From IMG/VR virus record IMGVR_UViG_3300030098_003098, positions 1 to 28,862 of that record: DNA of 28,862 nucleotides, one strand, 5' to 3'. Positions 1,550-5,266 of the stretch are shown here, in pieces. Under the pieces are notes generated by a model. It was not told the DNA's origin and searched no databases. It saw nothing but the letters and a program-made list of their open reading frames with translations. Each line of letters opens with the position of its first letter. The stretch's first letter is position 1. The stretch is from a virus. The position numbers and the translations under genes were made by a program.

Positions 1550-1735
1550 TTACTCTTCATCATTACCATATATTAAGTCCATAATAGTACAAATTGACAA
1601 GCTTAATAGTATTGCCCATAGAACTAATAAGGGCATATATTCTAAGCCTCTATACCAGTGATTTACTAATAGTATAGTTATTAATAATTGTGCTACAATA
1701 GGTAAGTATTTACCCAATTTATCAAAAGAATCCAT
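1550..1735 (-). CDS. Small membrane protein with two transmembrane segments, 61 aa
   Basis: Two hydrophobic stretches (about residues 11-26 and 33-53) are separated by a short loop (HWYRGLEYM), and the C-terminus is acidic (YGNDEE). The size and hairpin topology resemble small two-segment holins, but many small phage membrane proteins look like this, and the gene lies in the - strand cluster far from the lysozyme, so a holin assignment is weak. It starts at ATG 1735 with AAGGAG about ten bases upstream. It stands slightly apart from its neighbours, with 69-138 base gaps on both sides, unlike the overlapping genes further along. Confidence 0.6.
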   Translation of the reverse strand: MDSFDKLGKYLPIVAQLLITILLVNHWYRGLEYMPLLVLWAILLSLSICTIMDLIYGNDEE

Positions 1736-1830
1736 AGTTTAATTACTCCTTATAGTTTAGGACACGTTTATTTATATATTCTCGTGTATGTATATGTTAC
1801 AGGAAATTTAAGTGTAGAACAAGAGTAGCT

Positions 1831-1861
1831 ATAGCACACCAACAATAAGTCAATGTGCTAT
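1831..1861. other. Stem-loop after the 114-aa gene
   Basis: A perfect 8-bp stem, ATAGCACA (1831-1838) pairing with TGTGCTAT (1854-1861), has a 15-base loop. It lies just beyond the stop codon of the - strand gene ending at 1874. There is no clear T-run on the - strand side, so it is a weak terminator or a transcript-protecting hairpin rather than a classical intrinsic terminator. Confidence 0.4.
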
Positions 1862-1873
1862 GCTCTCTAGATA

Positions 1874-2218
1874 CTAAGCTGGTAACTGCTCTGTAGGTTG
1901 TTCAGATGGTACTGAAACACCTTGAGATTGCATATCTGCATACTCAGATTCAGACATACAATCATTTGTTTCAGGATTCCAATAGCAATAACCCTCAGTA
2001 TAAACTGCTAATAGTTTCTTCCATTGTACTTCATCAATATCATTTGCAAAGCCACTATCTATAACAGTCCCTTGCTTGGCTGTTGGGTCAAACTTGCTCA
2101 TATTGAATACAACGCCTGGTACTGGTTCAAGAGCTTTCTTTGGTCTTGAAGTAGCTTGATACTTCTGTTTTCCATCACTACCTATATAATCTATGAAGTA
2201 TAACTTAATCCATTTCAT
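1874..2218 (-). CDS. Hypothetical protein, 114 aa
   Basis: I choose the ATG at 2218 (MKWIKLYFIDYIGSDGKQK...) because an AAAGGAAAG ribosome binding site precedes it and the upstream in-frame extension to 2422 reads like non-coding DNA with hairpins. The product has a strand-like N-terminus, a central acidic part (FANDIDEVQWKKLL) and a low-complexity Gln/Pro/Ser-rich tail (VPSEQPTEQLPA). No enzyme motif is recognised. It is the first gene of the - strand cluster, preceded by a leader of about 150 bases from a candidate promoter at 2378-2404 that contains two adjacent stem-loops. Confidence 0.65.
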   Translation of the reverse strand: MKWIKLYFIDYIGSDGKQKYQATSRPKKALEPVPGVVFNMSKFDPTAKQGTVIDSGFANDIDEVQWKKLLAVYTEGYCYWNPETNDCMSESEYADMQSQGVSVPSEQPTEQLPA

Positions 2219-2260
2219 AACTGTTCTTTCCTTTCTTGATTTGATTTGAAAAACGAAACG

Positions 2261-2298
2261 TATATCAACTAAAATGATATAAGCAAAATCTATTTTGC
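2261..2298. promoter_or_regulatory. Two adjacent perfect hairpins in the - strand leader
   Basis: TATATCA (2261-2267) pairs with TGATATA (2275-2281) around a 7-base loop. One base further, GCAAAA (2283-2288) pairs with TTTTGC (2293-2298) around the tetraloop TCTA. Both fall in the untranslated leader between the candidate - strand promoter and the ATG at 2218. They could attenuate transcription, stabilise the leader RNA, or mark an operator. Both stems are AT-rich and there is no long T-run directly after them. Confidence 0.4.
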
Positions 2299-2377
2299 CG
2301 TACCCTAGGGGATGAATATAGTTGTATAACATTTTGTAATAATTTTTGAAACTTCTTGTATTTGTGATACTAGTCAC

Positions 2378-2404
2378 ATTATATTGGAAAGTTGTATGAG
2401 GCAA
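2378..2404 (-). promoter_or_regulatory. Candidate sigma70-like promoter for the - strand cluster
   Basis: On the - strand, TTGCCT (2404-2399) is followed 15 bases later by a perfect TATAAT (2383-2378). The -10 box is ideal, the -35 box matches 4 of 6 consensus bases, and the spacer is shorter than the usual 17. Transcription would begin near 2371, giving a leader of about 150 bases before the gene at 2218. Confidence 0.45.
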
Positions 2405-2713
2405 TATTTTACATATTATCACCCTTTGAGTACCCCTGCAATGGTTCTGCTTCGAGGGTCAGACGTTGGTTTTACTCTCCAAATAGGATAAAGAGTTTTT
2501 CACCTACAGCCTCACAAATTGTTTTAATATAAATATTAGTATGGGTCGATAGAGTTAACCCGATGAAGTCAAGATGAGAATGAGAAGGTCCGTAGGAGAC
2601 TAATTAAGCTTGGCTTACTGAAAGTAAGCTCTTAGTGTACTGGCTAATAGGAAATTTAAAAATAAATAGCTTTTTCCTCCAGGGGATACTTACGCCCTTT
2701 TCGAATTTCGCTC
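2405..2713. other. Divergent intergenic region rich in stem-loops
   Basis: No ORF longer than about 27 codons with a ribosome binding site occurs here. The stretch holds several potential RNA stems: GCTTAC (2613-2618) with GTAAGC (2624-2629) around TGAAA; CTGG (2640-2643) with CCAG (2679-2682) enclosing GGAAA/TTTCC and ATTTA/TAAAT; and GGGT...ACCC near 2543-2561. It could contain a small non-coding RNA, an early control region or a packaging recognition site next to the terminase genes. None of these is proven by sequence alone. Confidence 0.35.
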
Positions 2714-2733
2714 ACACTATTTGGAAATAGTGT
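2714..2733. promoter_or_regulatory. Perfect palindrome, likely operator
   Basis: ACACTATTT (2714-2722), two central bases GG, then AAATAGTGT (2725-2733) form a 20-base inverted repeat with 9-base perfect arms. The two-base centre is too short for a good RNA hairpin loop, which favours a binding site for a dimeric DNA-binding protein. It covers the -35 box of the candidate + strand promoter, where a bound repressor would block RNA polymerase. Confidence 0.5.
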
Positions 2734-2749
2734 TCGCATTTTGTATATT
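2721..2749 (+). promoter_or_regulatory. Candidate sigma70-like promoter of the structural operon
   Basis: TTGGAA (2721-2726) and TATATT (2744-2749) are separated by exactly 17 bases. They match 4 of 6 and 5 of 6 consensus bases. The predicted transcription start, seven bases after the -10 box, is 2756, the A of the ATG of the first + strand gene. That gene has no Shine-Dalgarno sequence, which fits a leaderless transcript. Confidence 0.5.
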
Positions 2750-2755
2750 TAAGTT

Positions 2756-2968
2756 ATGGATAAAGATAAAAAAGGTAATGTTGTTTATACTCTTAAGATA
2801 TGTTTTAATCGAGAAACAGACGATATAGAATATATAGCTGAAGGGTTTGATGACAATTTTGACTTTACACCCATAGACCCATTTAATTTAGATAAGGATT
2901 ATACTGAAGTAATTACTTCCGAAGATATGGAAGCATTGCAGAAATTATATGATATAGAAGAAGACTAA
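2756..2968 (+). CDS. Hypothetical acidic protein at the head of the packaging operon, 70 aa
   Basis: The product is small and strongly acidic (ending YDIEED) with strand-like segments such as NVVYTLKICF. No family is recognised. It begins at ATG 2756 without any ribosome binding site; the predicted transcription start of the promoter just upstream coincides with this A, so translation from a leaderless mRNA is plausible. Its TAA shares a base with the ATG of the small terminase gene (TAATG), implying translational coupling. First position in the operon and conserved overlap suggest a packaging-related or regulatory role, but nothing in the sequence proves it. Confidence 0.6.
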   Translation: MDKDKKGNVVYTLKICFNRETDDIEYIAEGFDDNFDFTPIDPFNLDKDYTEVITSEDMEALQKLYDIEED

Positions 2969-3690
2969 TGAGGCAATATACGGTAAACAAGTTTAGACAC
3001 AACGTCTACGAAGAAGATGGTGAAGTTCCGTCTCATATTACTATTAAGGAAGATTGGCGTACAGCTAATATAGGAGACTGGGTAAGAGCAGATGATGATT
3101 GTGTTATCCAGATACTCCGTAAAGGTAAGATGCTTAGAAAGAAGGGTACTAGGTACTATGTAGGAACATGTACTGGTACCTTTTTAGTTTTACCTAAAAC
3201 AAAAATGGATACAGACCGTAGAAGTAATATATATTCATTTGGAGGACATGAGACTCCTGAAGAGGTAGTAAGGAATAGAAAAGAATTAACAGCTAATGAA
3301 GAATTGTTTGTTCAGTTCATGGCTATAGATAAAGATTCACCAGAGGAAGCGTATGTAAAAGCGTTTCCTACTAATAATAAAAGGTACGCTAGAGTAAAGG
3401 CTGCAAACCTTTTACAAACTGAGAGGATAAGAACTCGTATGAGAGAAGACTTAAAACCTACATTAGACGAACTAGGCATAGATGATAGAATGGTTCTAAG
3501 TGGAATTAAGAATGAAGCGACTACTGCTGAGAAGGCAGACACTAGATTAAAGGCTTTATTTAAACTATCTGATATATTAGACCTAGAAGAAAAGACTACT
3601 ACTAAGGTACAACAAGTTACTGGAGCTGTATTCCAAGGGTTTACTGATGAAATGCTAGAACCAGTTGAGCCCAAGAAACTCGATAAGTGA
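2968..3690 (+). CDS. terS: Terminase small subunit
   Basis: Residues about 106-210 show the pattern of phage small terminase subunits (XtmA/Terminase_2 type): LTANEELFVQFM, then EEAYVKAFPT, RVKAANLLQTERIR and later LKALFKLSDILDL. These proteins recognise viral DNA, recruit TerL to it and control the first cut. The N-terminal 90 residues are an extra domain rich in beta-strand-like segments (NIGDWVRADDDCVIQIL, RYYVGTCTGTFLV) that looks like a small barrel fold, and it makes the protein longer than many homologues. The gene overlaps the previous stop by one base and lies 19 bases before TerL, the usual order. The ribosome binding site is weak (GAAGAAG), in line with coupling to the upstream gene. 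Confidence 0.8.
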   Translation: MRQYTVNKFRHNVYEEDGEVPSHITIKEDWRTANIGDWVRADDDCVIQILRKGKMLRKKGTRYYVGTCTGTFLVLPKTKMDTDRRSNIYSFGGHETPEEVVRNRKELTANEELFVQFMAIDKDSPEEAYVKAFPTNNKRYARVKAANLLQTERIRTRMREDLKPTLDELGIDDRMVLSGIKNEATTAEKADTRLKALFKLSDILDLEEKTTTKVQQVTGAVFQGFTDEMLEPVEPKKLDK

Positions 3691-3709: not shown

Positions 3710-5266
3710 ATGGCTAATGTTAATTTTAATAATGTATCTAAGGCAGAAGAAGCATTAAAACTTGCTAGTAAGGATAATATTGCATTTGGTAAGTTATTCT
3801 TACAAGATGATTTTCTAAGAAGTGAAACTCCTCCCTTTCATTATGAAATAGCTGATGTAATCTCTAATGAAGAAAATAAGCAGGTGGCTATTATACTTCC
3901 TAGGGGTCATGGCAAGACCGTAATGACTAAATGCGATATACTTAAATCTTTCTGCTTTACTCAAGACCCTCTATTCTATGGATGGGTATCAGCTACTGCA
4001 AAACTTGCTACTGGTAACATGGACTATATAAAATATCACATAGAATTTAATGAAAGGATTCAATATTACTTTGGCAACTTAAAGGGTAATAAGTGGACCG
4101 AAACCGATGTGGAGCTAACAAATGGATGTAAACTTATTTCGAAATCGAATATCTCAGGTATTCGTGGAGGTGCGAAACTCCATAAAAGATACGACCTTAT
4201 CATTCTGGACGACTTTGAAGACGAAAATAACACGATTACACCAGAGGCTAGAGCCAAGAACTCCAATCTTATCACTGCTGTGGTGTTTCCTGCACTTGAG
4301 CCTCATACTGGTAGGTTACGCATTAATGGGACTCCTGTGCATTTTGATTCTTTCATTAATAACCTTATCATTAATCATGAGCAATCTAAGAAAGAAAATA
4401 AAGACTTCTCTTGGAAGGTAGTTCTTAAGAAAGCAATAGAAGAAGATGGTACTATGTTGTGGGATTCATGGTTTGGTGCTAAAGAGATGGAGCGTAAAAA
4501 GAAGTTCTATGCTGATTCAGGACAGCCACAAAAGTTCTTTCAAGAATATATGATGGAAGTACAGAGTAAAGATGATGCTATGTTTACTCGTGACCATATA
4601 AGATACTGGAATGGAAACTATACATACGATGCAGATTCAGGTATAGGATATTTAATCCCTGACGATGGAGATGCACAGCCTGTTAATATATATGTTGGAG
4701 TAGACCCAGCGACTGATAGTGCACGAAGAGAAGCTGACTATAGTGTATTACTTGCAGTTGCTGTTGATTTAAATAATAATATTTATATACTAGAATATTT
4801 AAGGAAAAGAGGTATACCAGTATTGGGTATCCCAGGAGAAGCTAAAAAGGGAATCGTAGATTATATATTTGATTTTGCGTCTAGGTATCACCCACAGCTA
4901 TTTACAATAGAAGATACTGCGATGAGTAAGCCAGTATTCCAAGCTCTTAGAGCTGAGATGCGTAGACGTAATAATTTTGATGTACGCTTTAAAGAAGAAC
5001 TACCTGGCACTAGACTATCTAAAAGAGATAGGATACAAGGTATACTTGCACAAAGATTTGCTATAGGGCAAATACATTTGAAAAAAGATATGTATGATTT
5101 ACAACGAGAGATAATAACATTTGGTCCTCGTATGAGTCATGATGATACTATAGATGCACTTGCATATGCTTGTAAGTATGCACAACCACCTATAGGAATA
5201 AAAGAAAGTAAAGATAAAGGGTATTATAAACGCAAACCAAAGGCTAAAAGTTGGGTAACAGCATGA
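3710..5266 (+). CDS. terL: Terminase large subunit (packaging ATPase and nuclease)
   Basis: This is the motor that pumps DNA into the procapsid and cuts it to length. The N-terminal ATPase has a Walker A motif LPRGHGKT (residues 63-70) and a Walker B segment LIILDDFE (163-170). The C-terminal RNase H-like nuclease shows its acidic residues in order: VGVDPATDS (Asp332), TIEDTAM (Glu401) and SHDDTIDALAYA (Asp478/479). At 518 residues it has the usual length and no disrupted motif. The C-terminal tail is basic (KGYYKRKPKAK). The ATG at 3710 has only a weak GAAG upstream. The stop TGA overlaps the ATG of a 19-codon ORF (ATGA). Confidence 0.95.
   Translation: MANVNFNNVSKAEEALKLASKDNIAFGKLFLQDDFLRSETPPFHYEIADVISNEENKQVAIILPRGHGKTVMTKCDILKSFCFTQDPLFYGWVSATAKLATGNMDYIKYHIEFNERIQYYFGNLKGNKWTETDVELTNGCKLISKSNISGIRGGAKLHKRYDLIILDDFEDENNTITPEARAKNSNLITAVVFPALEPHTGRLRINGTPVHFDSFINNLIINHEQSKKENKDFSWKVVLKKAIEEDGTMLWDSWFGAKEMERKKKFYADSGQPQKFFQEYMMEVQSKDDAMFTRDHIRYWNGNYTYDADSGIGYLIPDDGDAQPVNIYVGVDPATDSARREADYSVLLAVAVDLNNNIYILEYLRKRGIPVLGIPGEAKKGIVDYIFDFASRYHPQLFTIEDTAMSKPVFQALRAEMRRRNNFDVRFKEELPGTRLSKRDRIQGILAQRFAIGQIHLKKDMYDLQREIITFGPRMSHDDTIDALAYACKYAQPPIGIKESKDKGYYKRKPKAKSWVTA

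Follow-up and report, generated by a model that had tools for sequence, protein, structure and literature searches.

Operators of temperate-phage repressors are palindromic. In Deinococcus, experimentally tested -10 motifs are found about 6-7 bp 5' of open reading frames (ORFs), at the position of the ribosome binding site; close to one third of the genes of D. radiodurans have promoters with such an ORF-adjacent -10 motif, and for leaderless genes of Deinococcus-Thermus a -35 element at 17 bp can add strength (PMC12340547). Among phage transcripts, the lambda cI mRNA is a naturally leaderless control (PMC4965119), and the put RNA of HK022 is a structured RNA that begins a long operon (PMC9378689). 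A search of the literature on leaderless late phage operons found nothing usable. The locus analysed here shares traits with each of these systems and lies in front of the structural operon of an uncultured phage.

Results and discussion

The locus and its relatives

The DNA analysed (the window) covers 28.9 kb out of the 29.7 kb in a virus record from an uncultured phage. Judging from the kinds of sample and the nearest matches, the phage family is, at a guess, apparently marine. Neither a near DNA relative nor a close isolate was found among annotated phages, whose large terminase subunits (TerL) are less than 60% identical. The relatives used for comparison are IMG/VR contigs, in which the locus was located through searches with TerL, the portal protein and the small terminase subunit (TerS) and through DNA patterns, the regions upstream of g1 homologues being collected.

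Leftward genes start at about 2218 and rightward genes at 2756, with promoter, repeat and RNA in the gap between. The rightward gene order is g1, terminase small subunit, terminase large subunit and portal. The features discussed are as follows.

2356..2385, plus strand: P1, putative upstream promoter (TTGTAT-18-TATATT); the TTG/TATATT geometry is found 5' of the RNA in most relatives
2363..2378, no strand: CRP-like palindrome (TGTGA-N6-TCACA) flanked by the two boxes of P1; sole perfect match in the 29.7-kb record
2395..2701, plus strand: conserved structured RNA of about 300 nt; 27 sequences aligned, with covariation
2711..2738, no strand: YTCRCA direct repeats flanking the inverted repeat (CTCACA 2711-2716, TTCGCA 2733-2738); in many relatives, not all
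2714..2733, no strand: inverted repeat or hairpin, centred over the -35 region; arms covary in 17 distinct versions
2721..2726, plus strand: -35-like TTGGAA in the repeat apex; TTG-like hexamer at 17 or 18 nt in 12/19
2744..2749, plus strand: predicted -10 box TATATT of P2; TATATT or TAAATT 4-6 nt 5' of the ATG in 19/19 tabulated sequences
2756..2968, plus strand: g1 (70 aa), opening the structural operon; start predicted to be leaderless, no Shine-Dalgarno sequence (SD)
2968..3690, plus strand: terminase small subunit (PF03592, E 7.5e-6; phrog_51, E 1.3e-9)
3710..5266, plus strand: terminase large subunit (phrog_38, E 2e-75)

The g1 product is a small acidic protein which is conserved but has no convincing family; a low-confidence structure prediction gives a beta hairpin plus a helix. 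Several other genes were seen in the relatives: matches to spore photoproduct lyase (PF20903) at L163:13493-14392 (minus strand, E 9e-22) and L166:2109-2624 (plus strand, E 1e-17), a 234-aa protein whose C terminus carries an RNA polymerase alpha-CTD domain at L163:14684-15388 (minus strand; PF03118, E 3e-17), and a 3,444-aa late protein without family match at L180:167-10501 (plus strand), similar giant ORFs being present in the other long contigs.

The region in front of g1

An earlier note on this DNA had proposed a repressor-controlled leaderless transcript in front of g1, and the elements it described were all located: a perfect 9+2+9 palindrome at 2714-2733 (ACACTATTTGGAAATAGTGT), TTGGAA at 2721-2726 in the repeat apex, a 17-nt spacer, TATATT at 2744-2749, then six bases and the ATG at 2756. 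The ORF at 2756-2968 lacks an SD, as the note had stated, and most genes of the window have one. What the note had missed is that a structured RNA and another promoter-like site lie immediately upstream. A search for the palindrome elsewhere found it to be the single one in the window with arms of at least 9 and a loop of at most 8, against 1.7 expected from dinucleotide shuffles (0.03 for the 535-bp intergenic stretch), and promoter-like sites numbered 11 in 2.5 kb against 11.1 expected. Since palindrome and boxes occur at chance number in this AT-rich DNA, the relatives must decide, and it is conservation rather than count that argues for both being real.

Nineteen distinct upstream sequences were tabulated, and all of them keep the box, as TATATT in 17 and TAAATT in 2. 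Its columns average 98% identity compared with about 60% in the flanks, including the 24 columns 5' of the box. The upstream hexamer is weaker in the sequences outside the 12 with a TTG-like version, and a weak -35 in about a third of relatives counts against a promoter at this position. Across seven genomes, the box was found at the g1-type distance from 5 of 364 ORF starts, and all five were g1. Loci L010 and L097 were counted at an upstream ATG; both have a second ATG 6 nt after TATATT, which itself follows TTGGAA by 18 nt, so that taking this second ATG as the start preserves the geometry. None of the box-bearing relatives has an SD, and box and SD never co-occur, a mutual exclusion which is expected and partly trivial because both occupy the same bases.

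On this comparison, 2744-2756 is well supported as a genuine leaderless promoter (P2), with initiation predicted at 2756, and we infer that g1 is translated as a leaderless mRNA. The promoter half of the earlier proposal is thereby well supported at the level of comparative sequence: the box lies 4-6 nt from the ATG, is found before g1 only in the genomes scanned and gives way to an SD where the RNA is gone. A phage RNA polymerase was looked for and no match was found. A T4-type late promoter (TATAAATA, many copies) was rejected, the box being at the g1 distance before g1 only in the seven genomes, and a general alpha-CTD regulator was ruled out, being present in G001 only among ten records.

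The inverted repeat

The arms of the repeat are complementary in 17 distinct versions from the relatives, among which the left arm has 13 different sequences. Pairing of each arm with its own partner reached 6.6 of 7 positions compared with 3.2 of 7 for swapped partners, a value equalled by none of 20,000 permutations. The outer length of the repeat varies between 17 and 30 bp, and internal mismatches are present in L015, L108 and L109; these three loci, together with L157/L200, also lack the YTCRCA direct repeats. By manual count, the repeat centre stays some 20-23 bp 5' of the -10 box, over the -35 region, whatever the repeat length, and G-U pairs are absent from the outer stems. The repeat is retained by nine relatives with an SD but without the -10 box (L018-L037 group), and L073, L085 and L190 have lost it while keeping box and start.

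As the repeat occurs without the box and the box without the repeat, the repeat is not simply the operator of P2. The arm comparison indicates an element, separate from P2, in which selection has acted on the complementarity of the arms and not on their sequence. Its variable geometry favours an RNA fold; an outer stem free of G-U pairs and the near-constant centre over the -35 favour a DNA-level dyad. We have a weak preference for a folded hairpin in RNA read through from P1 over a fixed repressor site.

A conserved motif, promoter-like or for binding, AATTAAGCTACAGTAAGCTTA, was observed directly 5' of the hairpin, upstream of g1, in L018, L026, L036 and their relatives; a close form of it is found 5' of the RNA instead in L010, L016, L097, L154, L156 and L188.

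The upstream RNA and P1

Folding of the single leader sequence by minimum energy gave a z of -0.42, which is uninformative, and alignment folding was used instead. RNAalifold applied to 27 aligned sequences returned 30 consensus pairs, 16 of them with compensatory changes. In a hand-drawn set of 19 pairs, 92% were formed, and double-change cells numbered 47, shuffles giving 16.9 and slid partners no more than 4; this set leans towards the test sequences because it was drawn from those same sequences. Its G-U pairs assign the RNA to the plus strand. With a covariance model built on the 5' domain, one match each was found in the window, G001, G003, G004, G005 and G008, and none in G002 or in any SD-type locus of the L018-L037 group. 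Covariation in the alignment shows the RNA fold, and transcription of the RNA would begin at about 2392.

Searches against Rfam 15 gave no hit in the window at the gathering score, none up to E 1 over 1700-3000 and, in three relatives, none with E of 0.1 or less. The possibility of a group I intron, or of another known RNA, was rejected for want of an Rfam match, and the sole match from a scan of bacterial genomes with the RNA pattern, in Paenibacillus, was taken as chance. The structured RNA is previously uncatalogued, and is the bigger find at this locus.

Where most relatives have the TTG/TATATT geometry of P1, others carry AATTAAGCTACAGTAA. Of 28 distinct P1 regions, 9 retain the TGTGA-N6-TCACA palindrome, its N6 varying among them. 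An identical 28-nt sequence, TTGACAGTCAACATTGCGTACTCACTGA, was observed at L005:3121-3148, at L011:2541-2568 and on the minus strand of L188, upstream of the RNA in L005 and downstream of it in L011 and L188; it is a mobile or shuffled control element.

Evolution of the locus

On a TerS tree of 41 rows, with row states assigned by hand, the combination of box, RNA and repeat looks ancestral to a clade of 29 rows. The RNA-less relatives of SD type nest inside this P2 clade, the SD replacing the box, and the repeat-less, box-bearing L073, L085 and L190 form one group inside it. Outside the clade, in L152, L209, L210, L217 and L218, the RNA is followed directly by an SD and start codon, an arrangement in which the gene can be served by transcripts from P1; in other relatives outside, the box resembles TATCTT and the repeat is absent. 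Most simply read, the gene has its own leaderless promoter where RNA and P2 are present, and is served from P1 with an SD leader where the RNA was deleted. Loss of the RNA with a switch to the SD took place once or a few times (two independent pairs, on well-supported branches), and the association therefore amounts to no statistical proof.

Alternative explanations

The operator half of the earlier proposal is not supported in the form stated. It would have a dimeric repressor bind the palindrome over the -35 and so block P2, an arrangement consistent with the steady position of the repeat centre over the -35, with an outer stem free of G-U pairs as for a DNA dyad, and with the second, CRP-like palindrome in P1. 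A repressor dimer normally requires half-sites of fixed sequence and spacing, however, and here arm sequence, length and half-site spacing vary freely; the repeat also survives in relatives without a -10 box and is absent from others where the box is kept. Scans of early genes from G001 and G002 yielded no repressor gene, nor was a helix-turn-helix protein found among the early proteins scanned, most of which are without known function. We consider control by such a repressor unlikely. About as doubtful, in our view, is the reading in which there is no promoter at 2744, the operon is read solely from P1 through the RNA, with TATATT serving as an A/U-rich signal for translation instead of the SD. 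P1 and the RNA do lie directly upstream of g1, and the distant relatives couple the RNA to an SD-led gene, but mere A/U richness needs no exact TA(T/A)ATT at a fixed distance, other genes of these phages use SDs, and loss of the RNA is accompanied by loss of the box.

The repeat might alternatively belong to a pac or cos packaging signal, the terminase small subunit recognising the inverted repeat and YTCACA direct repeats. It is present as a single copy about 230-257 nt 5' of terS, often with the direct repeats, but it is lost in L073, L085 and L190 and absent from sister groups; moreover, contigs continue across the site, and the ends of the six long ones retrieved are at unrelated positions, so there is no fixed genome end at the repeat, and this role seems very improbable. 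A hairpin promoter of N4 type, used by a virion RNA polymerase, would accommodate the hairpin at the promoter, the protein of 3,000-3,700 aa encoded late in the genome and the distant similarity of TerL to that of N4-like phages. Against it, neither the giant protein of G001 nor nine records gave an RNA polymerase match (Pfam/PHROGs), although this is weak evidence, as the PF00940 control matched in no control genome; the box persists without the hairpin, and the -10 box is an ordinary one. We regard this explanation as highly improbable. A FliW/CsrA circuit, suggested by a weak match of g1 to FliW and by GGA in many repeat apices, was rejected: matches were weak and confined to 3 of the 27 relatives of g1, and seven records yielded no CsrA gene.

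Proposed mechanism

The explanation that we favour, and believe probably correct, is that P1 makes the RNA, P2 starts a leaderless mRNA at 2756 and the repeat is a separate element. Host RNA polymerase would recognise TATATT at P2, helped by the TTG-like -35, and transcription would begin at, or adjacent to, the A of the g1 ATG. The structural-operon mRNA would then open with the start codon, so that no SD is needed. Upstream, P1 would transcribe the structured RNA at 2395-2701, and in relatives that lost the RNA the hairpin would fall in the 5' leader. More tentatively, and with considerable doubt, the late control region could be a new module in which a structured phage RNA of about 300 nt, made from its own promoter separately from and before the leaderless late mRNA, acts on late transcription or on the packaging genes, loss of the RNA swapping the leaderless start for an SD.

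If the operon is indeed leaderless, the main late protein output of an otherwise SD-using phage would depend on leaderless-mRNA translation, and the nested SD-bearing relatives offer a natural comparison for the leaderless start. The RNA, which has no Rfam relative and is conserved beside the terminase genes across a group of uncultured phages, now has a role that can be tested.

Comparison with known systems

As in Deinococcus-Thermus, a TANNNT box lies a few bases 5' of the start codon, at the position of the SD, and there is no SD. Unlike in Deinococcus, the arrangement concerns one gene per phage, which heads the late operon, with SDs used otherwise, and it is here predicted from sequence. 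Like lambda cI, g1 is a phage gene, and its translation is predicted to start at an AUG forming the 5' end of the mRNA; whereas cI is a repressor gene, g1 heads the structural operon, and its leaderless start is a prediction. The inverted repeat overlaps the -35 region as temperate-phage operators do, but differs from these in that half-site and spacing are not fixed, no repressor gene was found and the repeat outlives the promoter. Lastly, as with HK022 put, a structured phage RNA opens a long operon and could act in cis on the polymerase; the RNA described here is distinguished by its size, about 300 nt, and by the second promoter-like site that follows it.
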